A stretch of DNA of 64,000 bases, taken from positions 1 to 64,000 of IMG/VR virus record IMGVR_UViG_3300021364_001752, one strand, 5' to 3'. Position 1 is the first letter of the stretch. Every line of letters begins with the position of its first letter. Position numbers and translations under genes: made by a program. Source of the stretch: a virus. This document shows positions 25,671-43,001 of this stretch, in pieces. A model generated the notes under the pieces. It saw only the letters and a program-made list of their open reading frames with translations, was not told the DNA's origin and did not search any database.

Positions 25671-25865
25671 GGGGCTGATCAGGATCGACAGGTGTGAAAG
25701 TGAAGTGGAGTTAACCGGATGACTGCGTAATAAGTCAATCAAACTAGATGCAAACGATAATTTTGCACCATCTGAGTTCGCTCTAGCAGCGTAACCACAG
25801 GGGGTATGGGCTCCACCTAGCAACAGAACGGGCCTCCAAGATGAAACATAGGTTATAGCACATCT
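25671..25865 (+). ncRNA. ssrA: tmRNA coding piece (tag ANDNFAPSEFALAA)
   Basis: It starts GGGGCTGATC at 25671, which pairs with the acceptor piece upstream. The resume codon is GCA 25750 and the tag reads ANDNFAPSEFALAA, ending at TAA 25792. The AND start and ALAA end are typical for alphaproteobacterial tags recognised by Clp proteases. tmRNA rescues stalled ribosomes and marks the broken protein for degradation. The 3' end (about 25865) is estimated. The phage also encodes ClpS and ClpP. Confidence 0.9.
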
Positions 25866-25880
25866 GAAAGGAAACCCAAA

Positions 25881-27008: not shown

Positions 27009-27190
27009 CCAATTTATATGTTGTCATCCATTATGATGATAGAGACTGGTGGGCACCGCCTAAAACGGTGTCTGCTAGACTGCCCTACGAAAATGCAATG
27101 GATGAGCTCGCTAGGTTAAATGCAATGGCTGGTCCACCGGACAAATATCAAGTTATGATGATTGAATGCCATCGGCCTGGTAAGAAATAA
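26990..27190 (+). other. Small open frame without a standard start codon
   Basis: An open frame in the -1 phase relative to the BMP gene continues past its stop to TAA 27190. It reads LYVVIHYDDRDWWAPPKT and then a helical stretch ending CHRPGKK, which looks coding. No ATG, GTG or TTG precedes it in frame except ATG 27098, which gives only 30 residues. It could use ATC 26993 with AGGAA upstream, be a frameshift extension, or be a gene broken by insertion of the BMP gene. Confidence 0.4.
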
Positions 27191-27191
27191 A

Positions 27192-27222
27192 AAAGGGGGA
27201 GTGTAAAAACTCCCCTTTAGTT
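27192..27222 (+). terminator. Hairpin terminator between convergent units
   Basis: AAAGGGGGAGT (27192-27202) pairs with ACTCCCCTTT (27209-27218, one G bulged), followed by T-rich sequence to 27235. It separates the BMP unit from the convergent gene ending at 27234. Confidence 0.7.
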
Positions 27223-27233
27223 TTGCGCTTTTT

Positions 27234-28241
27234 TTAAAAAGTTTTACCTATTTTTTCTTCGTCGTGGTCAGCGCCGAAAAACTCTTTGTAGGTATCAGGA
27301 TTTATAATGACCTTAAGTTTATCTTCAAGGTTTAATGATTTATACCATTCTTTGAAATTGTTGCCAAATGTGTCTACGTCATCACCAATTTCAACAGTTG
27401 CATTTACCCAGCCAGTGTTTCTTTTCCTGTCCGGATCTACGTAATATTTTACTTCAGGCCAACGGCTTGCCATATCGTCAAGAAAGTCTTTTTTGTTGAT
27501 AAGTGCATAAAGTTTTTTTAGCTTTTCAACATCATCGTTTTGATGGAACGCTATAAGTATACCCTGTAACACTATATCATCTTGTGGATTTTTAATGTAT
27601 TTAGAAAGTTTTTCTACTCTGTAGTGTGCCAATCTACGTAGTTCAATAGCTGATTCAATAGATAACTTGCTACGTAGAGCAAAGGTGGTTGCTACAGCGT
27701 CAAGTTTATCTTGATCGTCCATTTGCGCTAAAGTCATATCCCAATCTCTGTTGGCTCGAACTTCCTTATACATCGGAATATTGTAAGCATCGTATCGTTG
27801 ACTGCCTTGCGATCTTCGGCGTGGAGGAGTTGTAGTAGATCTGCCTTGATCAAAACCTGATGCATCTCTATCGCCTCTAGCTCTACGTCTTCCTTTACCA
27901 GGATTCATCCATTGATAATGTTGACCAGCAATTGCAACCATACCAGTGACTAGATTGCCTAATTTATCTAATAGTTGCTTAGTTTTAGATGAAGGACCAG
28001 CTGCCCGTCTTGAACCTCTAGGCGAATCAAATTCATCTCCATATGCTCTTGGTGGTGCATCAAATTCGTCGCCGTAGTTTGCACCTGGTGGTGCATCAAA
28101 TTCATCTCCATATGTTGCACCTGGACCTGCTGAAAATTCATCACCGTATGTAGCAGGTGTTCTTGCTGACATCATACGGTCAAATGCATCTCTCGAGGAT
28201 GGCATGCGTGGATCTTCACTAAGGATATCAATAATTTTCAT
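27234..28241 (-). CDS. Late protein with YGDEFDAPPGA repeats
   Basis: A 335-aa protein. The start is ATG 28241 (GGAG site seven bases upstream), not the longer frame to 28352, which crosses the late promoter. After MKIIDILSEDPRMPSSRDAF comes a tandem repeat of about 11 residues, YGDEF-D/S-A/S-P-P-G-A, four times (about residues 29-75). A Gly-rich hydrophobic segment (LGNLVTGMVAIAGQHYQW) and a charged region follow, then a helical domain. The N-terminal pattern recalls small virion proteins. It is alone on the minus strand with its own late promoter. Function unknown. Confidence 0.68.
   Translation of the reverse strand: MKIIDILSEDPRMPSSRDAFDRMMSARTPATYGDEFSAGPGATYGDEFDAPPGANYGDEFDAPPRAYGDEFDSPRGSRRAAGPSSKTKQLLDKLGNLVTGMVAIAGQHYQWMNPGKGRRRARGDRDASGFDQGRSTTTPPRRRSQGSQRYDAYNIPMYKEVRANRDWDMTLAQMDDQDKLDAVATTFALRSKLSIESAIELRRLAHYRVEKLSKYIKNPQDDIVLQGILIAFHQNDDVEKLKKLYALINKKDFLDDMASRWPEVKYYVDPDRKRNTGWVNATVEIGDDVDTFGNNFKEWYKSLNLEDKLKVIINPDTYKEFFGADHDEEKIGKTF
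28025..28150 (-). repeat. Tandem coding repeat (YGDEF units)
   Basis: Four imperfect copies of a roughly 33-39-base unit within the minus-strand gene; each encodes TYGDEF/NYGDEF/AYGDEF plus an acidic Pro/Gly linker. Copy number probably varies by slippage between related phages. Confidence 0.7.
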
Positions 28242-28260
28242 TGTGTTCTCCGTGTTACAG

Positions 28261-28266
28261 TATTTA
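28261..28266 (-). promoter_or_regulatory. Late promoter core (minus strand)
   Basis: On the minus strand GGTAAATACTG, about 20 bases upstream of the 28241 ATG, with CGGAG in the short leader. Confidence 0.65.
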
Positions 28267-28392
28267 CCTTGCCTATCAAAACCATGCATGCCTTTAAATG
28301 GGTAATATTTGCAAGAAAACCTATTGCTCCAAGCGAAGGTATATAAACGCATTGTTTACCATGCCTGCTACACTTTAGCGCAGTTCTACAAC

Positions 28393-28421
28393 TTGACATT
28401 GTAAAATTTGTATGCTATATA
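28393..28421 (+). promoter_or_regulatory. Sigma-70 promoter
   Basis: TTGACA (28393-28398), 17-base spacer, TATATA (28416-28421; TATATT two bases on is an alternative -10). It drives the unit from 28449 to the pseudoazurin gene. Confidence 0.72.
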
Positions 28422-28448
28422 TTAATACTTAGACACACGGAGATTAAT

Positions 28449-28652
28449 ATGAGTGATACTGTAAGAGCAGCAGCACAAAAGCAAGCCGAAGAAGCAATGG
28501 ATGGATTTATCCTATGGAGCAAACGAGTCACACTGTGGAGCGCATTCTTTTTATGTGTTGTTGTATTTGCTTGTAACTCAGGCGTAGACGGCAGTGGCAG
28601 TGGTTATAACGGAGAACAATATTCTCCTAGCAACTTGAATGTTAAAAAATGA
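28449..28652 (+). CDS. Small single-span membrane protein, 67 aa
   Basis: An N-terminal amphipathic helix, one membrane segment (about residues 27-45, VTLWSAFFLCVVVFACN) and a Gly/Ser-rich tail. It might be a lipoprotein-like anchor, but the Cys context is not a clear lipobox. It overlaps the next gene by ATGA. Unknown function. Confidence 0.6.
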   Translation: MSDTVRAAAQKQAEEAMDGFILWSKRVTLWSAFFLCVVVFACNSGVDGSGSGYNGEQYSPSNLNVKK

Positions 28653-28885
28653 AGTGGTTAATCGTATTTGCAATGTTGGAAGCAGATCCATTTGCAATAA
28701 AAAGTTTACAATTTGACACACAAAACGAATGCAAAGCATATATCAATGATCCTGCTAACAGCAGCAGACTTGCAATAGAAGTGATTGATGTGGCAGGATT
28801 TAACGATACAATATTAAATGTGGCTTGTATGCCCGCAAACAAAATTACGAGGGAGATGTTGAATGAAACCGAACAAGAAGTTTGA
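28649..28885 (+). CDS. Small protein with hydrophobic N-terminus, 78 aa
   Basis: MKWLIVFAMLEADPFAIKSLQFDTQNECKAYINDP...: a short hydrophobic lead that could be a weak signal or anchor. C28 and C59 could form a disulfide if exported. Similar small proteins occur in marine T4-like phages; function unknown. Overlaps the next gene by 23 bases. Confidence 0.6.
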   Translation: MKWLIVFAMLEADPFAIKSLQFDTQNECKAYINDPANSSRLAIEVIDVAGFNDTILNVACMPANKITREMLNETEQEV

Positions 28886-29027
28886 GTTATCAGTAAAAGA
28901 TTTAGAACTTATCGAGAATGCACTGCACAGACTAGAACCAACTCGAGAAGTTCAGGAACTTTTAGGACGACTACACAATCAAAAGAATTGGTATCGTCCA
29001 AAAGACGCAATCTATGTAGGAGGATAA
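28863..29027 (+). CDS. Small conserved phage peptide, 54 aa
   Basis: ATG 28863 to TAA 29027, overlapping the previous gene. It encodes KFELSVKDLELIENALHRL...GRLHNQKNWYRPKD, a compact helical peptide with the look of a small phage regulator, of unknown function. The ribosome site of the next gene (AGGAGG) lies at its end. Confidence 0.6.
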   Translation: MKPNKKFELSVKDLELIENALHRLEPTREVQELLGRLHNQKNWYRPKDAIYVGG

Positions 29028-29029
29028 AG

Positions 29030-29464
29030 ATGCGGATTTTAACTACACTAGGACTACTGTTAGTAATGGCAACAAGTGCCTTTGCTGAATCAAGGACAGT
29101 TGAAATGTGGAACAAGGACCCAGAAGACAAAAAGCGTAAGATGGTGTTCTCAGAAGAAATCGTCGTTATTGAACCAGGCGAATCAGTTACTTGGTTAGCA
29201 ACAGACAAAGGTCACAATGTGCAATTTATTGACGGTCCAGATGGCTACGAACTGCCAAAGAAATCAAAGATTTCAAAAGACGTTACAATTACATTTGATA
29301 CTCCAGGTGTTTATGTTTATGTTTGCACACCACACGCAACAATGGGCATGATTGGAATGATCATAGTAGGAGATTTAACTCAAGAAGGAGTTGATGCAAT
29401 ACGTGACGCAAAGTTACGTGGAAAAAGCAAAAAGAAGTTTAAACAACTTTTGAGCGAACTGTAA
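29030..29464 (+). CDS. Pseudoazurin (type 1 blue copper protein)
   Basis: A 144-aa exported electron carrier. The start is ATG 29030 behind AGGAGG; residues 1-19 are a clean signal peptide (ILTTLGLLLVMATSAFA). The cupredoxin copper ligands are visible: His in DKGHNVQFI, then Cys, His and Met in VCTPHATMGMIG. In alphaproteobacteria pseudoazurin passes electrons in the periplasm, for example from the bc1 complex to nitrite or nitrous-oxide reductase, or to oxidases. The C-terminal AIRDAKLRGKSKKKFKQLL helix is typical. No partner reductase is near. A phage copy would alter periplasmic electron flow, which is striking. Confidence 0.9.
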   Translation: MRILTTLGLLLVMATSAFAESRTVEMWNKDPEDKKRKMVFSEEIVVIEPGESVTWLATDKGHNVQFIDGPDGYELPKKSKISKDVTITFDTPGVYVYVCTPHATMGMIGMIIVGDLTQEGVDAIRDAKLRGKSKKKFKQLLSEL

Positions 29465-29480
29465 ACACATTTTGCTTTAA

Positions 29481-29502
29481 AGTGTTGTTTTTAAGCAACA
29501 CT
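29481..29502 (+). terminator. Weak hairpin after the pseudoazurin gene
   Basis: AGTGTTG (29481-29487) pairs with CAACACT (29496-29502); the T-run lies in the loop rather than after the stem. A possible transcript end of modest strength. Confidence 0.4.
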
Positions 29503-29569
29503 CACTGGTTTTATAATACTATCCACAGGGTAATATGCTCATAAAACTTACAAAGCAAAATTAGTGTGT

Positions 29570-29613
29570 TATAAATAAAGAGTAATTTGAAAGGGCACCT
29601 TTTGCGCCCTTTC
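29570..29613 (+). promoter_or_regulatory. Full-consensus late promoter with 5'-end hairpin
   Basis: TATAAATA (29570-29577) is a complete T4 late octamer. The transcript, starting near 29583, would open with the stem GAAAGGGC (29589-29596) / GCCCTTTC (29606-29613). A hairpin this close to the 5' end is known to stabilise mRNAs such as ompA, which would suit a highly expressed porin-like gene. Confidence 0.65.
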
Positions 29614-29647
29614 ATTTTGCCTCATAATAAAAAGAAGGAAAAATATT

Positions 29648-30499
29648 ATGCGCAAGGTATTTACCATTTTAGCGGCTACCATGGTAGCTGGTGTAGCTTC
29701 AGCACAAGAAGCACCAGCACCGACAGTCGTAATGCCAGTTGTAAGTGGCGAAGTTTCACTAGATTTTGCTGAAACTGCAGGCGGTTCAATTGGCGGCACT
29801 ATGGGTCTTGATTTAGGTATTGATGCAGGCGATATTGCTTACATCGATCTTGGTCTAAGTGCAACCGACGGAAATGCAGTTACACTAGATAACTGGGAAG
29901 TCGGAACCGAACTAGGCGGTGTAGGCGTTGCATTAGGTGACGACATTAACCTATTCTCAGAAGCAGAAGATGGTTCAACACTTTCTGCACCAGGCGGCGC
30001 CGAGTCAGTTAAAGTTACTGTAGGCGGTGCAGCAGTTGCAGTTGGTCTAACTGACTGGACAACCGACGTTACTGATTTTAGCAATGTTCAGGGTTCATAC
30101 ACCATCGGTGATGTATCAGAACTATCAGCTATAACAGTAGCAGGTGAAATGGATCTAGCAGACGATACACTATTGCTAGGTGCAAGTGCTGGTTATGGCT
30201 TCAATGACATTGGCCTTACTGGACATCTTACTTGGGAAGAAGCAGGTTATGTATCAGACACAGTAGCTGGAACTTCAAGTGACCTAATTGGTTACGAAGT
30301 TGTTGCTAGCCTTGGTTCACTAACTGCTTATGCCAACGGCAACAACCAGTCAATTGACGAGGCTGACGTTGAGTGGATCCAAAACATTGGTGCTTCATAT
30401 GAGTATGGACTAGGTGGTGCAACATTCACTGCCGGTGCAAACTACGATATGGTTGCACAAGAACTTGCTCCAACAGCAGGTATCAGCTTCAGCTTCTAA
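29648..30499 (+). CDS. Porin-like outer-membrane beta-barrel protein
   Basis: A 283-aa exported protein with a signal peptide (residues 1-19, ending GVASA). The mature part is made of short alternating strands rich in Gly, Ala, Asp and Ser, ending in SFSF with a C-terminal Phe, the outer-membrane assembly signal. Overall it resembles small general porins of marine alphaproteobacteria, with very low Lys/Arg. Full late promoter, a 5' hairpin, an AAGAAGG site and a strong terminator suggest abundant late synthesis. It might change host permeability, block superinfecting phages, or be carried in the virion; which one is unknown. Confidence 0.75.
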   Translation: MRKVFTILAATMVAGVASAQEAPAPTVVMPVVSGEVSLDFAETAGGSIGGTMGLDLGIDAGDIAYIDLGLSATDGNAVTLDNWEVGTELGGVGVALGDDINLFSEAEDGSTLSAPGGAESVKVTVGGAAVAVGLTDWTTDVTDFSNVQGSYTIGDVSELSAITVAGEMDLADDTLLLGASAGYGFNDIGLTGHLTWEEAGYVSDTVAGTSSDLIGYEVVASLGSLTAYANGNNQSIDEADVEWIQNIGASYEYGLGGATFTAGANYDMVAQELAPTAGISFSF

Positions 30500-30522
30500 G
30501 CAATAGAAGAAAAACAAGTATC

Positions 30523-30549
30523 AAGGGGCGTTTCGGCGCCCCTTTATTT
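30523..30549 (+). terminator. Rho-independent terminator after the porin-like gene
   Basis: AAGGGGCG (30523-30530) pairs with CGCCCCTT (30537-30544) around TTTCGG, followed by a short T-rich tail. A strong GC stem. Confidence 0.8.
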
Positions 30550-30554
30550 GTGAC

Positions 30555-30560
30555 TAAATA
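30555..30560 (+). promoter_or_regulatory. Late promoter core
   Basis: GACTAAATAA directly after the terminator, 30 bases before the nuclease start; GGAGGG ribosome site in the leader. Confidence 0.6.
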
Positions 30561-30590
30561 ATACGGGCATATTACTTTAGGAGGGCAGAA

Positions 30591-31073
30591 ATGCAACAAA
30601 ACGAATATGATGTAGTGCTACTCAAATGTGTAGATGGAGATACAGTTGATGTAGATATTGACCTAGGCTTTGGCGTATGGTTAAAAGATGAACGTGTTAG
30701 AATAATGGGTATTGATACACCAGAATCACGCACAAGAGACAAAGTAGAAAAACTTTTTGGCACAGCAGCAAAAGAAAGACTCAAAGAATTATTAGCAGAA
30801 GGCGGCAAACTAATCACTACAGAAAACAAAGACGGTGAAGATATGAAAGGCAAGTTCGGACGTATCCTAGGCGACTTTTATGTAGAGCGTTACGAAGGAC
30901 AGCGTGAAAAAGTAACAGACATTATGATCGAAGAAGGACATTGTGTTGCTTACTTCGGCGGTAGCAAAGAAGAAATTGCAATGAAGCACATGGCCAATAG
31001 AGAGAAGTTATTACGTGAAGGTGTGGTAAGTAGAGAAGCATATGAAGAAGCTCAAAACCTAATGGAGGACTGA
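30591..31073 (+). CDS. Staphylococcal-nuclease-like (SNase) protein
   Basis: A 160-aa OB-fold nuclease. Family motifs: VDGDTVDVDIDLGFG (calcium and substrate Asp), ERVRIMGIDTPESR (catalytic Arg and Asp) and GRILGDFYVE (second Arg), followed by EEGHCVAYFGG. SNases cut DNA and RNA to 3'-phosphates using calcium. There is no signal peptide, so it acts in the cytoplasm or inside the virion. Late expression fits host nucleic-acid breakdown or release. Confidence 0.88.
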   Translation: MQQNEYDVVLLKCVDGDTVDVDIDLGFGVWLKDERVRIMGIDTPESRTRDKVEKLFGTAAKERLKELLAEGGKLITTENKDGEDMKGKFGRILGDFYVERYEGQREKVTDIMIEEGHCVAYFGGSKEEIAMKHMANREKLLREGVVSREAYEEAQNLMED

Positions 31074-31074
31074 A

Positions 31075-31329
31075 TTGTTCAATACCAGACCGTCAACTAT
31101 ACGAGAAATACAAAGTTGGATTCACGGAAGAAAAAGTGCTGCAAGAGCAGAGCTTAAAAACACAGAGCCAGGCACCGAAAAGTATGATTACCTACTAGGT
31201 CGCTTGGCTTACTACGATGAATGGTCACAAAAATATGGATCTTTAATAGGAAAAAAGATGCCACCTAAGCGTGATCGTAGTAATGAAAAAAACCTGCCAG
31301 AACATTTGAAAACCAAAAAAAGAACTTGA
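31075..31329 (+). CDS. Hypothetical protein, 84 aa (TTG start)
   Basis: TTG 31075 has AATGGAGG six bases upstream and follows the nuclease stop by one base. A basic soluble protein (FNTRPSTIREIQSWIHGRKSAARAEL...) with a Lys-rich tail. Unknown; probably co-expressed with the nuclease. Its stop lies in the -35 box of the next promoter. Confidence 0.62.
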   Translation: MFNTRPSTIREIQSWIHGRKSAARAELKNTEPGTEKYDYLLGRLAYYDEWSQKYGSLIGKKMPPKRDRSNEKNLPEHLKTKKRT

Positions 31330-31353
31330 CAAACACTGACTATCTGCTATAAT
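31326..31353 (+). promoter_or_regulatory. Perfect sigma-70 promoter boxes
   Basis: TTGACA (31326-31331), 16-base spacer, TATAAT (31348-31353). It drives the 31384 gene. Confidence 0.82.
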
Positions 31354-31383
31354 GAAAGAACAGTAACAACGCAGGAGTCTAAT

Positions 31384-31746
31384 ATGAGTATGCATCTTGT
31401 AGGTCCACATATGACCACAACCAATTACAAGAAACGCAAACAGAAAGGTCTTACAAAAAGAGATCGTCAAGCTCAAGTTGAACACGAAGCATGGCTTAAG
31501 AAGATGGGTGTGCATCCAACACAGATCAAACCCAAGAGTCAGCCGTTGCAAACAAAAAACAATTACCAGCGTAATCCTGACATTCCTAGTTGCAGCGATA
31601 AGATTGATGGCTATGCACCTAAGAAAGAGTCACAACAGTATACAGGCACGTATATCACTGGTATTGCAACCATGCATAAATCTAACATGGTTCCTATTAG
31701 CAATAAGAAAGATGCTATTGAAGTTGCTAGAATGCGCAGAGGTTAA
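31384..31746 (+). CDS. Basic protein of unknown function, 120 aa
   Basis: Lys/Arg/Gln-rich and low in hydrophobic residues (TTNYKKRKQKGLTKRDRQAQ), so probably nucleic-acid binding or disordered. It has its own consensus early-type promoter and a CAGGAG ribosome site. Not recognised. Confidence 0.65.
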   Translation: MSMHLVGPHMTTTNYKKRKQKGLTKRDRQAQVEHEAWLKKMGVHPTQIKPKSQPLQTKNNYQRNPDIPSCSDKIDGYAPKKESQQYTGTYITGIATMHKSNMVPISNKKDAIEVARMRRG

Positions 31747-31777
31747 ACTGCGCATTTATAACCATATTACTTAACCG

Positions 31778-31783
31778 TAAATA
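31778..31783 (+). promoter_or_regulatory. Late promoter core
   Basis: CGTAAATAAT, 18 bases before the SleB-type gene. The ribosome site is GAGGT. An out-of-frame ATG at 31788 has the four-base spacing but opens only a short frame. Confidence 0.55.
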
Positions 31784-31800
31784 ATATATGAGGTATAATA

Positions 31801-32292
31801 ATGAAAACTCTAATCTTAGTGTTGGCAGGTGTTTTGATGGCTAGCCAAGTTGTAGCAGAAAGTTTGTTTGACAAAGATGCACATCCAGATGCCTTTTGTC
31901 TTGCACAAAATATATACTACGAAGCACGTGGTAGTAATCTAGCTGACCGAGCAGCAGTTGCAGATGTAGTTATTAACCGTGTAGAAGATACACGTTATCC
32001 TAATACAGTGTGCGAAGTAGTAAAACAAGGACGTAAAGATTCAAACGGAAATATGATTAGAAACCAATGCCAATTCAGTTGGTATTGTGATGGAAAAAGT
32101 GATAACCCTCAGGATGCCGATCTATGGGCGGATGCACAAATGTTGGCATGGAATGTGTTTTATTTCGATAAGTATAATGGACTGACCGAAGGTGCAACAC
32201 ACTATCATGCAACTTATGTTTCGCCGAGTTGGGCAAAAGAATTACAATTGGTAGGAAGAATCGGAGGACATATCTTCTACCGTTGGGAATAG
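31801..32292 (+). CDS. Cell-wall hydrolase, SleB/CwlJ family, exported
   Basis: A 163-aa enzyme with a signal peptide (residues 1-19, ending QVVAES) and the Hydrolase_2/SleB domain: DAFCLAQNIYYEARGSNLADRAAVADVVINRVED (with the catalytic Glu in YYEARG) and QCQFSWYCDGKSDNP. The family cleaves peptidoglycan glycan strands. Export by the host Sec system plus a late promoter fits an endolysin that gathers in the periplasm, so lysis would need only membrane depolarisation by a holin or pinholin. No separate spanin pair is evident next to it. Confidence 0.88.
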   Translation: MKTLILVLAGVLMASQVVAESLFDKDAHPDAFCLAQNIYYEARGSNLADRAAVADVVINRVEDTRYPNTVCEVVKQGRKDSNGNMIRNQCQFSWYCDGKSDNPQDADLWADAQMLAWNVFYFDKYNGLTEGATHYHATYVSPSWAKELQLVGRIGGHIFYRWE

Positions 32293-32304
32293 GAATTTCA
32301 ATAA

Positions 32305-34230
32305 ATGTTTTTAGGTTTACTAGTTTTAATCACGGCCCTATCTATCTCTGCCGTTGCAATTTATTACAGTGTTAGCGGTCTGGTAGCAATCTTTGCTGCC
32401 GCCGCTATACCAATTCTAATCATGGGAGGAGTATTAGAAATAGGAAAACTTGTGACTGCTGTTTGGTTGCATAGGTATTGGCGTGAAGCCAAGTGGTGGC
32501 TTAAAACTTATCTCAGTATCAGTGTCCTTGTGCTCATGTTTATTACAAGTATGGGTATTTTTGGTTTCCTATCAAAAGCACACATTGAGCAAACGGCTGC
32601 CGCAGAGGAAGGTATTGCTCAATTACAGATTATTGACACAGAAATTGCAAGATCACAAGCAATCATTGAAAGAGCAGAAATAAAGATAGAAGAAGCTCTT
32701 GCCAGTGTAGGACAAGGCAACGATGCAATACAAGCTCAAATTGACAAAGAGCAAGAGCGAATTGATACAGCATACGATCGCATTCAGCCTGCTATTGATG
32801 AACAAAATGCCATTATAGCCAATGCAAGACAAGACGATGCAAAAAGAACCGAACCTTATGAGCAACAGCTGGCGTCTTTAGATGTTGAGCTACGCAGTCT
32901 AGCAGAGCAAGCCAATCAATATGAAGAACGTATAAGTGCCTTGGTTGTGGATAACAGTGCAAGTAATCCGCTATTAGATAATATTGCTCTTATACGTGAA
33001 AGTATAACTAGAGTAAACGCACAACTTGCCAGTAGAGAACGTGAGCAAATACGACAGGCACAAAGAACTATTGGTGCTAATCCTGATGGATGGGCAGGAC
33101 AAAATACAAGAAACGCAGCCGATGCATGGATCAATCAACAAAATCTAGTAATTGAAGATTTACAAGAACAAGTTAGTATTCTAAGAGAAGAAGCACAAAC
33201 TGAAGTTAACAATGAACGAACAAGGTTGAGCAATCTTGTTGCATCATTGCGAGGGCAAAAGACAGACGAAATTAAAAGTAGACAACTTGAAATTCTTGCT
33301 ACCATAGATCAAGTTAGGGGAACAGAATCTCCTATAATTGTTTCAGCAAGAAAAGAAATATCTAGGCTACGAGAAAGTGCAGATACACAAATTACACAAT
33401 CAAATGATCTTATACAAAGACTACGTGATAGTCTTACAGTAGGCGTTGATGAAGAAGTAGAAGCAGAAGTAGAACAGCAACAACAAAAAATTATAGAAGC
33501 AAACAATTCTATTGACACACTTACAGAACAAAAGTATACTCTTCAAGCAGAGTATAGAAAACTAGAAGCAGAAGTAGGACCAGTAAAATATCTTGCAGAG
33601 TTTGTTTACGGAGAAACCGCTAACCAAGATTTACTAGAAGAGGCAGTAAGATGGGTCATTATTATGATTATTTTTGTATTTGATCCCCTGGCAGTCCTTC
33701 TGTTGATAGCAAGCCAGACAACATTCGAAATGCGCCGAGCCAATAAGATGGCTAATAAGGAGTATCTTCGGCAAAAAGAGTGGAAAAACTATGAGCAAGC
33801 AAGGGCACAAGCTATAGTCAATAATCCTGGCTTCACAGTAGGAGATAAAGATGACAATGAAAGCATTGATAATAAGCATGATGAACATGCACAATCCAGA
33901 AGTGTCGACAGAGGATCTAGTGACACCAACGGAGCCACCCATGAAGACGGAGCCGGACCAGGAGAAGATATCCTCGCCTATGCCGAAATGTATCACGATA
34001 CTGGAACCAACGATAATGGAGGAAGCACTACCGTCGGACTTTCTGACTCCCAAAAACAAGAACGAATAAGTGAATTAGAAGAAAAAGAACAGGATCTAAA
34101 TTATACAGAGCTGAAAAGAAAATGGAAATTGAAATATCCAGATCAGACCGCAAAGTTTTGGAAAGAGCAATATATACTTGGTAAAATTAACAGTCTTCCT
34201 TGGGAAGATTTTGAAAACACATCTGATTAA
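32305..34230 (+). CDS. Large membrane-anchored coiled-coil protein
   Basis: A 641-aa protein. Three or so N-terminal membrane segments (residues 1-25, 27-48, 72-95) are followed by a coiled coil of about 320 residues (QTAAAEEGIAQLQIIDTEIA onward). Another membrane segment lies near 448-468 (WVIIMIIFVFDPLAVLLLIA), then a hydrophilic tail with WKLKYPDQTAKFWKEQ. Similar proteins are common in marine T4-like phages, but their role is not known to me. The position after the endolysin allows a role in membrane remodelling or superinfection control. Start spacing from the previous gene is 12 bases. Confidence 0.7.
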   Translation: MFLGLLVLITALSISAVAIYYSVSGLVAIFAAAAIPILIMGGVLEIGKLVTAVWLHRYWREAKWWLKTYLSISVLVLMFITSMGIFGFLSKAHIEQTAAAEEGIAQLQIIDTEIARSQAIIERAEIKIEEALASVGQGNDAIQAQIDKEQERIDTAYDRIQPAIDEQNAIIANARQDDAKRTEPYEQQLASLDVELRSLAEQANQYEERISALVVDNSASNPLLDNIALIRESITRVNAQLASREREQIRQAQRTIGANPDGWAGQNTRNAADAWINQQNLVIEDLQEQVSILREEAQTEVNNERTRLSNLVASLRGQKTDEIKSRQLEILATIDQVRGTESPIIVSARKEISRLRESADTQITQSNDLIQRLRDSLTVGVDEEVEAEVEQQQQKIIEANNSIDTLTEQKYTLQAEYRKLEAEVGPVKYLAEFVYGETANQDLLEEAVRWVIIMIIFVFDPLAVLLLIASQTTFEMRRANKMANKEYLRQKEWKNYEQARAQAIVNNPGFTVGDKDDNESIDNKHDEHAQSRSVDRGSSDTNGATHEDGAGPGEDILAYAEMYHDTGTNDNGGSTTVGLSDSQKQERISELEEKEQDLNYTELKRKWKLKYPDQTAKFWKEQYILGKINSLPWEDFENTSD

Positions 34231-34235
34231 AACAT

Positions 34236-34628
34236 ATGGCTCACATAAACGTTATTACTCCTCCTGACATGTTGCACAATGCTGCATTGACATTTTGTTT
34301 GATACAACCTAGCGACAGTATCAAAGAACAGACGCAAAAACTTATAGAAAATTTTGATGATCCTGTGAACATTTATATCTACGACCCAGAAGCCGAGCAA
34401 GACAGAGATTGGGACTGGCTTATCAACACAGCTAGGTTAGCTGATTATACCATATTAGATATTGATAATTTAGATGTAATCACACGTAATTTTGCAAGCT
34501 ATTTCGTCAGCTTGCCAAATGTTTTTTACTTGACAAATGACGAAAACACCCCTTATAATAAATTAAGTTTGAACAGAGTTTACAACTTAGATTGGCTTTA
34601 CGATAAAATCTTAGAGAGGAAAACATGA
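34236..34628 (+). CDS. Hypothetical protein, 130 aa
   Basis: A compact alpha/beta protein, starting MAHINVITPPDMLHNAALTF, with a Rossmann-like strand pattern (NIYIYDPE, YTILDID, VFYLTNDE). It overlaps the bS21 gene by four bases. No catalytic motif is firm enough to name. Confidence 0.65.
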   Translation: MAHINVITPPDMLHNAALTFCLIQPSDSIKEQTQKLIENFDDPVNIYIYDPEAEQDRDWDWLINTARLADYTILDIDNLDVITRNFASYFVSLPNVFYLTNDENTPYNKLSLNRVYNLDWLYDKILERKT

Positions 34629-34873
34629 GCAGATACAATCGCAAACAAAAAAACTTTGAAGAAGGCATCAAAGGCCTTGCTGTAGAAGTTTACAACAACG
34701 ACATCAACAAAGCACTTCGCAAGTTCAAAAAGAAAGTGCAAGAGGATGGAATTTTACAAGAGCTTCGTAAGCGTGAATATTACGAAAGCAAAGGCACAAA
34801 GAAACGTAAAGCCAAAGAAGCTGCAATCCGTCGTCATCGCAAGCAGCGTCTCAAAGAAGCAGCTAACTGGTAA
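34625..34873 (+). CDS. rpsU: Ribosomal protein bS21 homologue
   Basis: An 82-aa basic protein. The bS21 core is clear: VEVYNNDINKALRKFKKKVQEDGI, then ELRKREYYESKGTKKRKAKEAAIRRHRKQRL, as in E. coli S21 ([21 protein letters not shown]...). bS21 sits on the 30S platform beside the anti-Shine-Dalgarno end of 16S rRNA and affects which mRNAs are initiated. Phage bS21 genes are known and are thought to replace the host protein on ribosomes. This phage also encodes IF-1 and seems to make leaderless late mRNAs, which gives the gene special interest. Confidence 0.92.
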   Translation: MSRYNRKQKNFEEGIKGLAVEVYNNDINKALRKFKKKVQEDGILQELRKREYYESKGTKKRKAKEAAIRRHRKQRLKEAANW

Positions 34874-34882: not shown

Positions 34883-36019
34883 ATGCGTCTCGAAGAAGAC
34901 CTTAAACTAGACTACAAGGACGTCCTAATTCGTCCCAAGCGTAGCACTCTCAAAAGTCGTTCTGAAGTTAGTCTCGAACGTAAAACAAACTTTCGTAACT
35001 ATGAACCAGACTTTGATATTGGAGACTACCATTACCGTGGTATTCCAATTATGGCAAGTAATATGGATGGTGTTGGCACATTTGAAATGGCTGACAAACT
35101 TGCCGAAGGCGATATATTCACCTGTCTAGTAAAGACCTATAGCGTAGAGGAACTAGTTGAATATTTCAATGGTCCTATTGAACGCACTGAATGTGTTGCA
35201 ATGAGTATTGGCACAGGTGATAGTGATTATAATAAACTTATCCAAGTTAAGAAAGAATGTGATAACAAATTAAAATATGTTTGTATGGACATTGCAAATG
35301 GATACAGTGAACATTTTGCTGACCATGTAAGAAAGGTCCGCGAAGATTTTCCTGATCTTGTGATTATTGCTGGTAATGTTGTCACTAGAGAAATGACGGA
35401 GGAATTGATTCTTGCTGGAGCCGACATTGTTAAAGTGGGCATTGGCCCTGGTAGTGTTTGCACTACTCGTATTCAAACTGGTGTGGGTTATCCACAACTT
35501 TCGGCTGTTATTGAGTGTGCTGATGCTGCTCATGGTCTCGGCGGTCACATTATTGCTGATGGCGGGTGTTCGACGCCTGGAGATGTCGCAAAAGCCTTTG
35601 CCGCAGGAGCCGACTTCGTCATGCTTGGAGGAATGCTTGCAGGACACGATGAAGGCGGAGGAGAATCCATTTTCAAATATGAAGGAACTGGTGAGTTCTA
35701 TTTTATGAAAGAGGACGAAATTTACAAGCCGGTTATCAACAGAAAAGAATATCGTAAGTTTTACGGTATGAGTAGCGAAACAGCTAATGAAAAACATTTT
35801 GGCGGACTTAAAGACTATCGTTCGTCGGAAGGTCGCACAGTGCTTGTGCCATACAGAGGACCTGTAGCTAAAACAGTGCAGGAAATCATGGGTGGTGTGC
35901 GTAGCACCTGCACCTATACGGGTGCAAAGAAAATCAAGCAGTTGCCCAAGTGTGCAACTTTTATACGTTGTTCACAAACACATAATTCAGTGTATGAAGG
36001 AAGCACAATTGGTAAATAA
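34883..36019 (+). CDS. guaC: GMP reductase
   Basis: A 378-aa TIM-barrel enzyme that converts GMP to IMP with NADPH, releasing ammonia. It aligns with E. coli GuaC from residue 1 ([53 protein letters not shown]). The catalytic Cys is C193 in GPGSVCTTR. There are no CBS domains, which separates it from IMP dehydrogenase. The C-terminal part ([29 protein letters not shown]) is intact. It would turn host or imported guanine nucleotides into IMP and then adenine nucleotides, useful for an AT-rich phage. Confidence 0.94.
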
Positions 36020-36070: not shown

Positions 36071-36517
36071 ATGACAAGATTAACAACTCTAGACTTACCT
36101 ACATTCGCTCGTGCCACAATTGGCTTTGATAGAATGTTTGAGCAACTCGATAGAGAGTTTTCAAATTCAAAAAGCTCAGGATATCCTCCATACAATGTTG
36201 TCCAAGAAAACGACGATGAGTATACTATCTCATTGGCTATTGCTGGATTTTCTATGAACGACCTTGACATCACTTTGGAGAAAAATGTCCTAACAATCGA
36301 AGGCACATCGCCCGAAGTTCCAGAAGGTAAAAATTACCTACATAAAGGCATTGGCAACAGAAACTTCCGTAGACAGTTTACACTAGCTGAACACATTGAA
36401 GTTGAAGATGCTGAACTAGAAAACGGTATGCTACATATCAATTTGGTGCGTAATGTGCCAGAAGCACAGAAGCCAAAGAAGATTAATATCCGTGAAGTTG
36501 GAATGATCGAAGGCTAA
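36071..36517 (+). CDS. Small heat-shock protein, Hsp20/IbpA-like
   Basis: A 148-aa ATP-independent chaperone. The alpha-crystallin domain spans about residues 37-130 (YNVVQENDDEYTISLAIAGFSMNDLDITLEKNVLTIEG, split here only to locate it, and NRNFRRQFTLAEHIEVEDAE). The A-x-L-x-N-G-x-L motif reads AELENGMLHINL, and a C-terminal I-N-I provides the oligomer contact. It holds unfolding proteins during infection or assembly. Hsp20 genes are common in T4-like marine phages. An AAGGAG site precedes it. Confidence 0.93.
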   Translation: MTRLTTLDLPTFARATIGFDRMFEQLDREFSNSKSSGYPPYNVVQENDDEYTISLAIAGFSMNDLDITLEKNVLTIEGTSPEVPEGKNYLHKGIGNRNFRRQFTLAEHIEVEDAELENGMLHINLVRNVPEAQKPKKINIREVGMIEG

Positions 36518-36566: not shown

Positions 36567-36872
36567 ATGAGTGTTGATACAGAAGTTGTATTAGACGAAA
36601 AAATTAAAATCAAACAGAAACAGCCAAAAAAATATAAAGTTGTTTTCCTAAACGATGATACTACGCCTATGGAGTTTGTTGTAGGTGTGTTAATGGAAAT
36701 ATTCAAACACTCTGCCGCTACAGCAGAAAAAATTACAATGACTATACACAACGAAGGCAGTGGTGTCGTTGGTGTTTACAGTTACGAAATTGCAGAACAA
36801 AAAAGTATCGAAACTACACAAGCTGCAAGAAACAATGGTTTTCATTTACAGGTTAGATTAGAAGAAGAATGA
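36567..36872 (+). CDS. clpS: ClpS, adaptor of the ClpAP protease
   Basis: A 101-aa adaptor. The ClpS domain covers residues about 20-101: YKVVFLNDDTTPMEFVVGVL with the N-degron pocket residues N-D-D and Met, then TMTIHNEGSGVVGVYSYEIAEQK with the His that contacts the N-terminal residue. ClpS delivers proteins with destabilising N-terminal residues to ClpAP and blocks ClpA from SsrA-tagged substrates. Here it would shift host Clp specificity while the phage also provides tmRNA and ClpP. It overlaps the heme oxygenase start by ATGA. Confidence 0.93.
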   Translation: MSVDTEVVLDEKIKIKQKQPKKYKVVFLNDDTTPMEFVVGVLMEIFKHSAATAEKITMTIHNEGSGVVGVYSYEIAEQKSIETTQAARNNGFHLQVRLEEE

Positions 36873-37405
36873 GCAAACTCAAAGAACTTACTTGGGCAAA
36901 TCATCAAAAAGCAGAACGCACAGAACATGCCCGTAAACTGCTAAAAGGAATGACTCCTGAAGAGTATCACAGATACATTTATAATCAATATGTGCAATAC
37001 GCAGTTTTAGAAAGTAGAGCAAAAGATGTTTCTGCTCTTGCTGGTATAGAAACTATATGTAGAGCAAAAAATATATTAGAAGACTTGGAAGAATTAGAAT
37101 CAGAATTTGATATTCAACGCAATGTCGACTTGCTTTGTCCGGTGGTTGCTCAATATACAGGACATGTAATGAGTCTAACTGAAATTGATGACTTGCTTGC
37201 ACACATTTACGTAAGACATTTTGGTGATATGTATGGCGGACAAATGATCAACAAACGCAACCCCGGCTCGGGTAAAATGTATGAGTTTGAAGATGTAGAA
37301 GGTTTGAAACTTACGGTAAGAGCAAGGCTAAAAGACTCAATGGCAGACGAAGCCAATCGCTGCTTCGAGTTTGCAATGCAATTATTCGAAGAACTTGATG
37401 GTTAA
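36869..37405 (+). CDS. Heme oxygenase (biliverdin-forming)
   Basis: A 178-aa all-helical enzyme that opens heme to biliverdin, releasing iron and CO, with electrons from ferredoxin. The proximal ligand is H12 in WANHQKAERTEH. The distal helix YVRHFGDMYGGQMI (residues 114-127) holds the Gly pair over the heme. It is shorter than plant/cyanobacterial HO1 and fits the phage/alphaproteobacterial HemO group. The bilin reductase at 38093 would use its product. Stop overlaps the next start. Confidence 0.9.
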   Translation: MSKLKELTWANHQKAERTEHARKLLKGMTPEEYHRYIYNQYVQYAVLESRAKDVSALAGIETICRAKNILEDLEELESEFDIQRNVDLLCPVVAQYTGHVMSLTEIDDLLAHIYVRHFGDMYGGQMINKRNPGSGKMYEFEDVEGLKLTVRARLKDSMADEANRCFEFAMQLFEELDG

Positions 37406-38096
37406 AACTGTATATTCAATAGGGTGCAGTCATACTAATGGCTGCATGATTGACGGTATAAACGGAACAAGTAAAGTTAATAAACAAAATAGCTTTGCAG
37501 GACAAATTGCAAAAAGGCTTAAAGCAACACATTATAATCTGTCTTTAAACGGCGCAAGTAACCAGTATATATTTCGCATAGCTAACCAAGTTGTAGCGCA
37601 GGTCACTGACTCTGATGACACATTGTTTATAATAGGGTGGACTAGTCCTACTAGATTAGAGTTAAGAGAAGATAATAAAATTTTTCCAGGCCATCCTGAG
37701 GGATATGACAATAACTATATTCCTTTTAGTGTTGGGGCTAATAAAGACAACTTTTCTAAAGAGTATAAAAGGCTATTAAATGATGCACCTGCATTGTGTA
37801 ATATAACAATGTTAATTGATCACTGGACTTGCTACATCATTGCACTTCAAAATTTATTTGCACAGCATAAAATAAGATATATAATGTGTAATACAATGCA
37901 GCCCATTGAGCAAACAAGCAATAATAGTGACATGATTAAAATGATAGATACATCAAATTATTATAAACCTTTTGATGTTGATGAAAGTTTTTATAATTGG
38001 GCAAACCTTAATTATGAAAGAACACCATGTCATCACTTCCCCTTAAAAGCACATAAAGATTTTGCTGTAAAAATTATGAAAGAGATGAAATTATGA
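37398..38096 (+). CDS. SGNH-like hydrolase domain protein
   Basis: A 232-aa protein. The chosen start is ATG 37398, overlapping the heme oxygenase stop; the upstream in-frame start would extend further into that gene. VYSIGCSHTNGCMI resembles block I of SGNH esterases/lipases with Ser or Cys as nucleophile position. Block II-like SLNGASNQYIFR and a terminal DESFYNWA...CHHFPLKAH, with a possible Asp...His pair, also fit. Substrate unknown. It lies between the two bilin-pathway genes and may be a later insertion. Confidence 0.65.
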   Translation: MVKTVYSIGCSHTNGCMIDGINGTSKVNKQNSFAGQIAKRLKATHYNLSLNGASNQYIFRIANQVVAQVTDSDDTLFIIGWTSPTRLELREDNKIFPGHPEGYDNNYIPFSVGANKDNFSKEYKRLLNDAPALCNITMLIDHWTCYIIALQNLFAQHKIRYIMCNTMQPIEQTSNNSDMIKMIDTSNYYKPFDVDESFYNWANLNYERTPCHHFPLKAHKDFAVKIMKEMKL

Positions 38097-38779
38097 GTGA
38101 AGTTTGGAATACACTGATTAAAATTCAAGATAGACTAATTGAACGTTTTGATGATACTGGCAAAGAAATAGAAGAACCAGGAATGAATAGATTCAATCAA
38201 CCAGGCTGGATTAATAGAGTTTGGAGCAGTGAAGCCTATCGTCGAGCTCACGTAGATGTTGTCGATGCAAGAGACACTAAAGGTCTATGGATGATGCATT
38301 GTTGTGTGTTTCCACACTTGCACAACGATGGTCCTATCTTTGGATTAGATGTTATTGCAGGTAAAAATAAAATTACAGGTTACTTTCATGATTACTCACC
38401 GACTAGCAATCCTGCAAATGAAATGATTGAGGCGTTTGGAGATGAAGTTGCAAAACTAGAATGGCGCAAACCTCGCGAGCTACCAGATTGGGCCAAAGCA
38501 ATATTTACAGAACATATGGTAGCAGCAGGAAATGTTAACAGCGAAGAAGAATTACAGCAGTTGCTTGATCTTAGTTTTGAAAGCATAGATAACTATCTAG
38601 AATACATTAGTGCATACAATAACGTAGCCAACGAGCAAGCAGGTAAAGATGCACAAAATCGCTATGCTCATTATCAAAAACAAAATCCGCATACGCCACG
38701 CACAATGACCAGTTTAGGACTTGATGAAGAAGATGTGCAAGTATTTGTGCAGGAGTGTCTTTTTCCCGACATTGAATAA
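38093..38779 (+). CDS. pcyX: Ferredoxin-dependent bilin reductase, PcyX/PebS-like
   Basis: A 228-aa protein with the FDBR fold signature: CCVFPHLHNDGPIFGLDVI (about residues 69-87), where PebS has LPCFGMDL, then YFHDYSPTSNP, and a C-terminal QVFVQECLFPDI like the PebS ending VNDFLFCYK. These enzymes reduce biliverdin to open-chain pigments. From memory, phage PcyX enzymes found beside hemO in marine metagenomes make phycoerythrobilin and form a clade near PcyA. The catalytic Asp/Asn near QNPHTPRTM appears to be Asn. The neighbouring heme oxygenase supports the call. Exact product is uncertain. Confidence 0.78.
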   Translation: MSEVWNTLIKIQDRLIERFDDTGKEIEEPGMNRFNQPGWINRVWSSEAYRRAHVDVVDARDTKGLWMMHCCVFPHLHNDGPIFGLDVIAGKNKITGYFHDYSPTSNPANEMIEAFGDEVAKLEWRKPRELPDWAKAIFTEHMVAAGNVNSEEELQQLLDLSFESIDNYLEYISAYNNVANEQAGKDAQNRYAHYQKQNPHTPRTMTSLGLDEEDVQVFVQECLFPDIE

Positions 38780-39804
38780 TGCCACAATGCAAAGCTCTAA
38801 CAAACCAACTTCATATTAATGTAGACGGGGAATATAAGCCCTGTTGTGCCTATAGTGGTGATACAGGTTACAAGGTAGCTAACACCGATCATAAAGATTT
38901 TTTGTCCAGCCCGTTGATGCAAACCATTAAGCAAGAAATGGAACAAGGATGGCATGACGGGTGTCTTGGGTGCAAACACGCAGAAGAAAGTGGACAAATG
39001 AGTGCTCGCAATGCATTTAATATGTGGTGCAAACAGCAACCTGGTGTGTTAGAATATCTTGATATAAGTTTAAGCAATCAATGCAATCTAGCCTGTAGAA
39101 TGTGCAATGAGATAAGCAGTAGTCGTTGGGAAAAATTATTAGACTGTAAAACTGCTCCTAAAAATAATTTAGATAGCATAATAAAAGACCTAGATTTAAA
39201 TCTATTAAATCACATAAAGTATCAAGGCGGCGAGCCTTTTATAACTCCTGAAATAATAGATGTGTTAAAATTAGTTGCTTCGCAAAAAACTTTCTTTACA
39301 TTCAGCACCAACTTGACGCTGTATCCTAAAAAGTATGAAAGCCTACTAATGCAAGCCAAAGGAATATATGCAAACTTTAGTTTGGACGGATACAAGCATG
39401 TAAACAATTATATAAGAAGTTGTGCTTGGGATACTATAGATTCTAATCTAGATCGTTGGCTTAAATTTTTTAAAAAATACAATATCAAAGGTATGCAAAA
39501 TGTTAGCACAGTGGTTCAAGCTCTAAATTTTCACGACCTTCAAAATATAAAAAATTATGTAAACGGAAAAAATATAATTTGGATAGCACAAGAAATAGTA
39601 GATCCTGATTATATGAGTATAAATGCTTTACCTGAATCTTATATAGAGCAAGTTATAGACGATGTAAATTCAAAATTTTTACACTCATACAAATTTGATC
39701 AACAACTTTTTAAAGATTTTAAACAAAACATTTTGGCACAAGATAAGTTGTTAGGCACAACATTGCAAACAGTAAATCCGTTGCTGTATTCTTATTTAGA
39801 ATAA
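38779..39804 (+). CDS. Radical SAM protein with N-terminal cysteine cluster
   Basis: A 341-aa enzyme. The SAM [4Fe-4S] motif C102-NLA-C106-RM-C109 and the GGEP box (YQGGEPFI, about residue 155) define a radical SAM core. Upstream, C4, C22, C23, C62 and C65 (C-L-G-C) look like a second cluster site placed before the core instead of after it, as in twitch/SPASM proteins. That arrangement suggests modification of a peptide or protein. No precursor peptide is obvious next to it. Similar twitch-domain proteins are known in T4-like marine phages. Its stop is part of a late promoter. Confidence 0.85.
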   Translation: MPQCKALTNQLHINVDGEYKPCCAYSGDTGYKVANTDHKDFLSSPLMQTIKQEMEQGWHDGCLGCKHAEESGQMSARNAFNMWCKQQPGVLEYLDISLSNQCNLACRMCNEISSSRWEKLLDCKTAPKNNLDSIIKDLDLNLLNHIKYQGGEPFITPEIIDVLKLVASQKTFFTFSTNLTLYPKKYESLLMQAKGIYANFSLDGYKHVNNYIRSCAWDTIDSNLDRWLKFFKKYNIKGMQNVSTVVQALNFHDLQNIKNYVNGKNIIWIAQEIVDPDYMSINALPESYIEQVIDDVNSKFLHSYKFDQQLFKDFKQNILAQDKLLGTTLQTVNPLLYSYLE

Positions 39805-41719: not shown

Positions 41720-41743
41720 TAAATATACATGGAGGGCCATGTA
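41720..41743 (+). promoter_or_regulatory. Late promoter within an RBS-hiding hairpin, upstream of csgF
   Basis: TAAATA (41720-41725) is followed by TACATGG (41726-41732), loop AGGG, and CCATGTA (41737-41743), whose last base is the A of the start codon. The Shine-Dalgarno GGAGGG is therefore in the stem-loop. Late transcripts should start near 41730 and cut off most of the left arm, freeing the site. Confidence 0.65.
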
Positions 41744-42225
41744 TGAAAAGAATAGCGAACATCGCCATGTTGCTGCCTATGTTTGTGTCACTGTCAGTGT
41801 CACATGCAGGAGCAGATCTAGTTCATCAGTTTAAAAATCCCAGTTTTAGTGGTATTGGGTATAGCACCCATGTTTTGAGTTTAGAACAATTACAATTTAA
41901 CAGAACAGAGGACATTGCAAAGGCAGCTGAAGCAGAAGAGCGTAGGCTAGAGCGCGAGCTAGAAAATTCAACATTAAACAAATTTATTAAAAATGTAGAG
42001 TCTCGCATATATGCAACATTGAGCAAGCAAATGGTAGACGCTATGTTTGAATCATGCACTGATGACACTGGGCTTACCTGTCCTACAAGCGGAACTACTG
42101 AAATTGAGGATAGCACCATTACTTGGAGCAAAGATACAACCACAGGAGAAATTACAATTGTTGTTGATGGTCCTGACGGTTATACTGAAATCAGCATACC
42201 GGGATCAGGGGAGTTTGCCTTTTGA
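41743..42225 (+). CDS. csgF: CsgF-like curli assembly protein
   Basis: A 160-aa exported protein with a signal peptide (residues 1-23, ending SVSHAG). The mature N-terminus ADLVHQFKNPSFSGIGYSTHVL matches the CsgF start (TFQFRNPNFGG) that plugs into the CsgG pore and forms its second constriction. A helical middle (about 55-105) and a beta-rich end (ITWSKDTTTGEITIVVDG) also fit CsgF, which links the pore to the fibre nucleator outside the cell. Two Cys (SCTDDTGLTC) may form a disulfide. It overlaps csgG by four bases, as an operon partner. Confidence 0.88.
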   Translation: MKRIANIAMLLPMFVSLSVSHAGADLVHQFKNPSFSGIGYSTHVLSLEQLQFNRTEDIAKAAEAEERRLERELENSTLNKFIKNVESRIYATLSKQMVDAMFESCTDDTGLTCPTSGTTEIEDSTITWSKDTTTGEITIVVDGPDGYTEISIPGSGEFAF

Positions 42226-43001
42226 AGTATTTAATGATACTTGGAATTTTATTTTTAACAGGTTGCACGGTGCCACAAAGCGTTCAAGAAGCAATGGATA
42301 GCGAACCTGAAGTCCAAGTAAATCCTATGCAAGCTGAGTTGAGAGCACTACCTGGACCAGATGGCGATCCAGTGCCAATAGGTGTTTACAGTTTTTCAGA
42401 CAAAACTGGACAGCGTAAGCCTGCTGACAGTGTAGCAAATCTAAGTTCAGCTGTTACACAAGGCGCAGAAGTATGGCTTATTGATGCACTACTGGAGGCA
42501 GGCGAAGGCGAATGGTTTAATGTTGTCGAGCGTGTTAGTTTAGACAACATTATAAGAGAAAGACAACTTATACGAAGCACAAGGGAAAATTATGATGATC
42601 CAAGTCCTTTAGAGCCAATGCTCTTCGCAGGAGTGGTTTTAGAAGGCGGAATTATAGGATATGACAGCAACCAGACCACAGGAGGGTATGGTGCAAGATA
42701 TTTTGGAATAGGCGCTGCTACTGAATACAGAGTAGATACTGTGACAGTTGGCATGCGTTTAGTGAGCGTTGGCACTGGAAGAGTGTTAATGAGCGTGGCA
42801 GCAGAGAAGACTATAGCTAGCCATAGGAGTGGGGCAGATGTTTTTAAGTTCTTAGACATGAGCACCAAGGCACTGGAAATAGAGAGCGGATACAGTGTCA
42901 ATGAGCCTACCAATTATGCTGTGAGGGCAGCAATAGAGGCAGGAGTAATAGAACTAATTTATGAAGGAAATCGAAAAGGTTTTTGGACATTTAAACAATG
43001 A
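42222..43001 (+). CDS. csgG: CsgG-like outer-membrane curli secretion pore
   Basis: A 259-aa lipoprotein: signal MKYLMILGILFLTGC with lipid Cys15. It aligns with E. coli CsgG along its length: VGSIIGYESN is VLEGGIIGYDSN here, GARYFGIGA is identical, and YSVNEPTNYAVRAAIEAGVIELI matches the C-terminus. CsgG forms a nonameric outer-membrane barrel that secretes curli subunits. In the constriction loop (KPADSVANLSSAV) the Asn is kept, but the position of Phe56 is Leu and Tyr51 has no clear match, so the channel may be wider or choose other cargo. It lies between csgF and two curlin-repeat genes. Confidence 0.93.
   Translation: MKYLMILGILFLTGCTVPQSVQEAMDSEPEVQVNPMQAELRALPGPDGDPVPIGVYSFSDKTGQRKPADSVANLSSAVTQGAEVWLIDALLEAGEGEWFNVVERVSLDNIIRERQLIRSTRENYDDPSPLEPMLFAGVVLEGGIIGYDSNQTTGGYGARYFGIGAATEYRVDTVTVGMRLVSVGTGRVLMSVAAEKTIASHRSGADVFKFLDMSTKALEIESGYSVNEPTNYAVRAAIEAGVIELIYEGNRKGFWTFKQ

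Follow-up and report, generated by a model that had tools for sequence, protein, structure and literature searches.

Bilin synthesis genes in phages

Oceanic phages are known to carry the genes for two steps from heme to a reduced bilin. Mosig (EXVC030M), a SAR11 phage isolated on Pelagibacter with a genome reported to be 76% complete (PMC7892664), has adjacent genes for a heme oxygenase (HO), hemO, and for a PcyX-type ferredoxin-dependent bilin reductase (FDBR), pcyX, and a heme-to-bilin cassette of alphaproteobacterial phages, linked to AlaS, has been described with a purpose that is 'still enigmatic' (PMC11480375). Cyanophages carry ho1, pcyA, pebS and cpeT, and for them too the purpose of phycobilin synthesis 'remains a mystery' (PMC3037559) or, for Prochlorococcus phages, is 'unclear' (PMC2984593). 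Passages of PMC10665884, PMC2984593, PMC3037559 and PMC10452541 treat phage bilin genes solely as aids to host light harvesting or leave their purpose unresolved. Here we analyse the hemO and pcyX genes of a 64,000-base window, the first part of an 80,455-base virus record (IMG/VR record IMGVR_UViG_3300021364_001752), and describe a candidate acceptor for their product, the repeated phycobiliprotein-fold domains in giant tail fibres of related phages.

A preliminary description of this DNA had read a heme oxygenase and a PcyX-type reductase as encoded together, and this holds: both open reading frames (ORFs) lie on the plus strand, at 36869-37405 (HemO, 178 amino acids (aa)) and 38093-38779 (PcyX, 228 aa), and both score above their Pfam cut-offs. 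HemO matches PF01126 at 64.8 bits (cut-off 23) and, by phmmer, the heme oxygenase 2 of PDB 5uc8 (E = 3.4e-12); the histidine in its ANHQKAE stretch aligns with AHDRAE of 5uc8 and is presumably the heme-ligand histidine. The reductase matches PF05996 (Fe_bilin_red) at 65.2 bits (cut-off 31) and, by phmmer, is far closer to the solved PcyX_EBK42635 (PDB 5owg, E = 4.8e-67) than to PcyA (E = 4.3e-14). The preliminary description had named failure of the 38093 protein to fold as an FDBR in prediction as a refutation, and the reductase withstood this check: its AlphaFold model, with a predicted local distance difference test (pLDDT) score of 93.5, has 5owg as its best Foldseek match in the PDB (E = 7.2e-15). 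We regard the identity of both enzymes as close to certain.

The active-site residues D55, H69 and D86 are kept in 82/82 reductase sequences (those of the window and of Mosig, and the best 80 of 196 confirmed IMG/VR relatives) and in 83/83 rows of a second set, from which rows of 200 aa or fewer were dropped. The number of these relatives puts the observation far beyond chance. Asp55 is described as specific to PcyX (PMC11480375) and stands in place of Glu76 of PcyA, with the residue roles as given in PMC11480375 and PMC10151467; since it is present in the window enzyme, phycoerythrobilin would be the expected product.

With an adjacent pair in Mosig and the cassette discussed in PMC11480375, the window pair adds one more member to a cassette already described, and sequence comparison places it in a second pcyX lineage with its own gene order. 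It shares with the cassettes of Mosig and PcyX_EBK42635 the neighbouring hemO and pcyX, the D55/H69/D86 residues and an alphaproteobacterial type of phage. However, the Mosig and window PcyX proteins are only ~48% identical, and the backbone differs: 2-oxoglutarate (2OG) oxygenases and neck genes accompany the Mosig type, whereas the window type runs rpsU-hsp20-clpS-hemO-pcyX, with csgF and csgG. The window also has an extra ORF between hemO and pcyX that the Mosig-type cassette does not have. The vAlaS-hemO-pcyA/X cassette of the CB_2 phage is alike in its heme-to-bilin genes, in the alphaproteobacterial hosts proposed for it (PMC11480375) and in AlaS, which is over cut-off in 10 of 50 related whole records. 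Its enzyme, however, makes phycocyanobilin (PCB) and has no Asp55 (PMC11480375), whereas D55 is present in the window enzyme, and no AlaS match occurs in the record of the window itself. The group of the window phage and the cyanophages share synthesis by the phage of a bilin whose purpose is unsettled in print (PMC3037559, PMC2984593) and, as shown below, the same tail domain.

A genome scan for bacterial PcyX returned 57 pattern matches, of which 6 (contigs L164-L169) are in metagenome-assembled genomes (MAGs); we did not accept these as bacterial genes. The GTDB MAGs to which the contigs were assigned belong to unrelated phyla. Genes are ordered as in the phages on at least four of the contigs (L165-L168), and the Neomarinimicrobiota MAG that includes L167 also holds 12 matches to the fibre domain described below. 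They are probably phage contigs within MAGs.

Predicted phycobiliprotein-fold repeats in giant tail fibres

The 50 whole records, comprising 43 with a window-type pcyX, six controls and Mosig, were searched for ferredoxin, AlaS and phycobiliprotein families. Two pcyX records each gave a match to the phycobilisome family PF00502, within ORFs 4122 and 3225 codons long, and it was the sole Pfam match of the stretches concerned (31.3 and 31.8 bits, cut-off 22.2); PHROGs assigns both giant proteins as tail fibres. A domain protein of cyanophage Sf-CH3 scored 29.8 bits with the same family. The fibres contain repeats of the pattern Y...C.RD.GY..DA..YD...G.N, single copies of which seldom betray their family, a PF00502 match at E 0.1 being obtained for just 9/46. 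In one further record (G027), an ORF of 6682 codons (~104-123 kb) holds most of that record's 44 domain matches.

The cysteine, arginine and aspartate of the CxRD motif are strongly conserved. Across the 243 repeats that an iterated profile retrieved, with gaps set aside, they are present in 207/231, 222/231 and 222/232 repeats, respectively. The motif cysteine occurs in 33/38 repeats from eight fibres of PcyX records, in 47/48 repeats from 11 cyanophage proteins and in 197/220 repeats from 25 proteins found by the domain; within giant proteins, cysteine occupies 87-98% of motif sites versus 0.36-0.50% of other residues. CXRD is the bilin-binding motif, its cysteine being the covalent attachment site (PMC10151467).

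Comparison with known structures points the same way. A profile of 46 repeats searched against all PDB sequences gave 33 matches at E ≤ 10, of which 30 are phycocyanin alpha chains, with the motif cysteine falling on residue 84 of 1f99; phmmer with a single repeat found nothing in the PDB at E up to 10. One repeat was modelled with AlphaFold as an all-helical domain (pLDDT 92.3, predicted TM-score (pTM) 0.87), for which the top Foldseek rows in the PDB are smURFP-biliverdin, allophycocyanins and the bilin domain of ApcE (query TM-score (TMq) up to 0.78). VIA-align superposes the model on allophycocyanin with a Z score of 16.2, at 1.9 Å over 116/128 residues, and among the 50 matches listed, 48 have phycobiliprotein or phycobilisome titles, the other two being fluorescent proteins. 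A Foldseek search of viral models retrieves this domain from tail proteins of cyanophages. It is well supported by computation that the tail fibres of the window phage group and of cyanophages contain repeats with a phycobiliprotein fold, in which the attachment motif is intact.

The closest described counterparts are phycobiliproteins and the bilin biosynthesis-associated globins (BBAGs; PMC10151467). Globins of this clade from heterotrophs bind bilins without a lyase (PMC10151467). The fibre repeats have their fold and CxRD motif in common and, as BBAGs do, co-occur with HO and FDBR genes (PMC10151467). They differ in being shorter (~130 aa), in numbering 1 to 44 per positive record and in being embedded in tail-fibre proteins. 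A side feature of such fibres is a plastocyanin/azurin-like stretch that stays below threshold (19.0 and 16.9 bits, cut-off 21.2), in fibres at 8843-15643 (minus strand) of record L295 and 2272-9063 (plus strand) of L296.

Distribution of the fibre domain

The domain profile matched 18/43 pcyX records and 0/6 controls, the controls being rpsU records without the pair at the locus. Among records of at least 90 kb, the domain is present in 12/14 with PcyX versus 0/4 controls (Fisher p 0.005, against p 0.07 for all sizes), figures to be read with the 90-kb size cut having been chosen after the data were seen and the records being related rather than independent. When three domain queries were run by tblastn against 50,697 phage records, 195, 321 and 129 records matched, and all of them are named Synechococcus, Cyanophage, Prochlorococcus or Marine.

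Among records with a bilin reductase (isolates and a single-cell record), the domain is present in 8/11, namely P-SSM4, P-SSM3, S-SSM4, P-RSM4, P-SSM7, Sf-CH3, P-RSM6 and P-HM1, although the signal is weak in P-SSM4 and P-SSM3, with a single match each (E = 1.9e-5 and 1.4e-7). Nine cyanophages picked by the domain comprise two Prochlorococcus phages with both HO and FDBR and seven Synechococcus phages with neither, as would be expected if Synechococcus phages use host bilins; this cyanophage sample is small and was mostly picked by domain or by FDBR.

In Sf-CH3, the genes stand close together: a CpeT-like gene (19578-20123) is followed, after tRNAs and a small ORF, by a 2OG oxygenase, then by pcyA (21146-21853) and lastly by the virion gene that bears the domain (21891-34862). 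A full-length CpeT gene is also found near the domain-bearing gene in S-CAM4, S-WAM2, S-PM2 and S-H9-1. Weaker CpeT matches in P-RSM6, P-HM1, S-RIM8 and P-SSM4 are not adjacent to it, and the CpeT search found none in B23 and DSL-LC03.

A proposed destination for the bilin

The preliminary description had named a phytochrome ligand, an antioxidant and iron release as uses of the pigment, a list that omits the use we favour, in a tail-fibre biliprotein encoded by the phage. HemO would open the heme of the host, giving biliverdin IXalpha, which PcyX would reduce by four electrons from host ferredoxin, most likely to phycoerythrobilin. The bilin would most likely be meant for the virion, not the host, and could be attached to the CxRD cysteine of the phycobiliprotein-fold repeats in the giant tail fibres, where the pigment might make the fibre a light sensor, let it absorb or quench light, or stabilise it. 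Computation shows which enzymes are encoded and that they keep their active-site residues, the fold of the domain, the conservation of its motif and its co-occurrence in relatives; we infer that the window phage has such a fibre, that its repeats bind bilin and what the bound pigment does. The reading that a reduced bilin, most likely phycoerythrobilin, is made by the phage to load its own fibre repeats has, in our judgement, about an even chance of being right.

A broader version, which we put forward more tentatively and at somewhat under even odds, is that phage bilin synthesis in general (hemO-pcyX; ho1, pcyA, pebS and cpeT) serves phycobiliprotein-like domains of the phages' own tail fibres and baseplate, with Synechococcus phages using host pigment and phages of hosts without phycobilisomes bringing the genes. 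The analysis suggests a candidate bilin acceptor that is new here, namely giant tail fibres of relatives with PcyX, in which a domain of ~130 aa is repeated; by titles and the starts of abstracts, we found no report of a fibre biliprotein of phages in the open-access literature. If true, a bilin acceptor in the phage's own fibre would answer why phages of phycobilisome-free hosts make phycobilins, and pigmented virions could perhaps allow fibre switching or light-dependent adsorption, the latter reportedly described for cyanophages.

The connection of the window phage to such a fibre comes through its relatives. The first complete ORF of the record (127-1092, plus strand) has a homologue at 78% identity in relative G029, which starts ~5.4 kb after the end of the fibre gene, and the window record ends ~5.3 kb short of the syntenic place. 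By this synteny, the window phage would be expected to have its fibre gene a short way beyond the recorded sequence. A second relative, G001, shares the surroundings of the G029 fibre gene, and its match to the start of the window rests on two other genes.

Several observations weigh against a fibre destination for the bilin. The domain profile has 0 matches in the 80,455-base window record. In the two closest relatives, G001 and G029, PF00502 is not called for the fibres; of the two repeats in each fibre, C.RD is present in one and the cysteine is missing from the other. In these phages hemO-pcyX is far from the fibre gene (positions of 36 kb and 180 kb in G011), which leaves no operon to connect them. 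The similarity has its own limits: the best PDB match of the 46-repeat profile is marginal (E = 0.0097), no Foldseek PDB match of the repeat model reaches E 0.001, and a shared fold and motif fall short of proving that bilin is bound. Co-occurrence is also imperfect. No domain was detected in Mosig, P-SSM2 and AG-345-F15, although the Mosig genome is reported to be incomplete (76%), and these three show that phages may have a bilin reductase and yet no domain that can be detected; among 26 records sampled by the domain, an FDBR was found in one, the other 25 being fragments of 7-81 kb; and the whole-record search of the controls, 0/6 for HemO, did not extend to FDBR. The CpeT lyase, present in many cyanophages with their cyanobacterial hosts, was found in 0/23 alphaproteobacterial-type records of the window group.

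Alternative explanations

The alternative that survives best, although we think it unlikely, is that HemO strips iron from heme for the infection, to supply 2OG-Fe(II) oxygenases, ribonucleotide reductase or virion iron, while PcyX merely clears biliverdin and the fibre domains are structural and unrelated. An iron role is mentioned in PMC11480375, the hemO-pcyX pair of Mosig comes after genes annotated as 2OG-Fe(II) oxygenases and ferrochelatase, and a ribonucleotide reductase is encoded in the window. Yet PcyX costs four more electrons and its catalytic residues are kept in all 82 sequences, which disposal alone explains poorly; the AlaS of ten related records indicates heme supply rather than breakdown; and the CxRD cysteine of the fibres would be left without an explanation.

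Gene order would favour another account, that the pair belongs to a DnaK/Hsp20/ClpS stress block and makes an antioxidant bilin from the heme of decaying host proteins. The order hsp20-clpS-hemO-pcyX is seen in most window-type loci, and the clpS stop and hemO start share 4 bases. Among 80 loci sampled by rpsU, some of which end early, hsp20 was present in 72, clpS in 62, hemO in 42 and pcyX in 39, so hemO-pcyX is an optional insert in a stable backbone block, and in Mosig-type phages the pair is located elsewhere. On these counts stress protection is improbable, and the chaperone/ClpS operon as a functional partner of hemO-pcyX was rejected, the synteny being that of the phage backbone.

Slightly less probable again is a host photoreceptor, by which the bilin would serve as a bacteriophytochrome ligand and alter host light signalling. 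In its favour, the PCB formed by PcyA of the CB_2 phage can assemble with Cph1 (PMC11480375). The clustered loci showed no evident association with phytochromes, although the PHY and GAF families were not searched. SAR11 hosts of PcyX phages are not known to have phytochromes, which also counts against a photoreceptor.

Host and ferredoxin

The least probable account by far, a cyanobacterial host whose phycobilisomes the bilin would support, draws on the related reductases carried by cyanophages and is contradicted by an alphaproteobacterial-type transfer-messenger RNA (tmRNA), which is over cut-off in the window and in 32/50 related records; Mosig, a phage of SAR11, is one of the 32 and serves as a positive control. 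In the window, this permuted tmRNA (25415-25885, plus strand) scores 97.9 bits with RF01849 alpha_tmRNA (cut-off 50) at 25415-25837 and 108.4 bits with RF04321, and ARAGORN places it at 25423-25885. The host is probably an alphaproteobacterium. The preliminary description had taken the host to be alphaproteobacterial and non-photosynthetic; the tmRNA agrees with the first part of that claim, and the second remains a presumption.

That ferredoxin does not come from the window phage record, another point of the preliminary description, is confirmed: the Fer2 profile search of the record was empty, and the motif search found no plausible ferredoxin motif on the sense strand. By profile search, no phage ferredoxin was found in 49/50 whole records, Mosig alone having a Fer2 match.

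Gene neighbourhood of the pair

The second pcyX lineage has the gene order rpsU - (IMPDH or DnaK) - hsp20 - clpS - hemO - pcyX - csgF - csgG. In the window, the conserved backbone block is anchored by bS21 (rpsU, 34625-34873, plus strand; PF01165, 62.9 bits), which is followed by an IMPDH/GMP reductase-type gene upstream of hsp20 (34883-36019), a position taken instead in relatives by a DnaK or exonuclease-like gene, as named by sequence inspection. The small heat-shock protein Hsp20 (36071-36517, plus strand; PF00011, 70.9 bits) and the adaptor ClpS (36567-36872, plus strand; PF02617, 102.6 bits), directly 5′ of hemO, are neighbours conserved among relatives.

Between hemO and pcyX there is an ORF, as previously described, of 232-241 aa on the plus strand, starting at ATG 37398 or TTG 37371 and running to 38096. 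Its earlier label as SGNH-like does not stand, the sole Pfam match being a sub-threshold one to DUF6071 (19.9 bits, cut-off 27), and most relatives have no counterpart between the two genes.

A radical SAM/SPASM gene (38779-39804) adjoins pcyX, and the curli secretion genes CsgF and CsgG (41743-43001) are kept downstream of pcyX in many relatives. Consecutive ORFs at ~70256-77346 of the record show a CxxxCxxC motif in the sense frame, with five matches. The ORF at 48121-50169 unites a CHASE2 sensor and an adenylate/guanylate cyclase domain in one protein (PF05226 and PF00211) and belongs to a PHROG of unknown function. Directly after the tmRNA, a substrate-binding protein of a PnrA/Bmp-type ABC transporter is encoded at 25881-27008.

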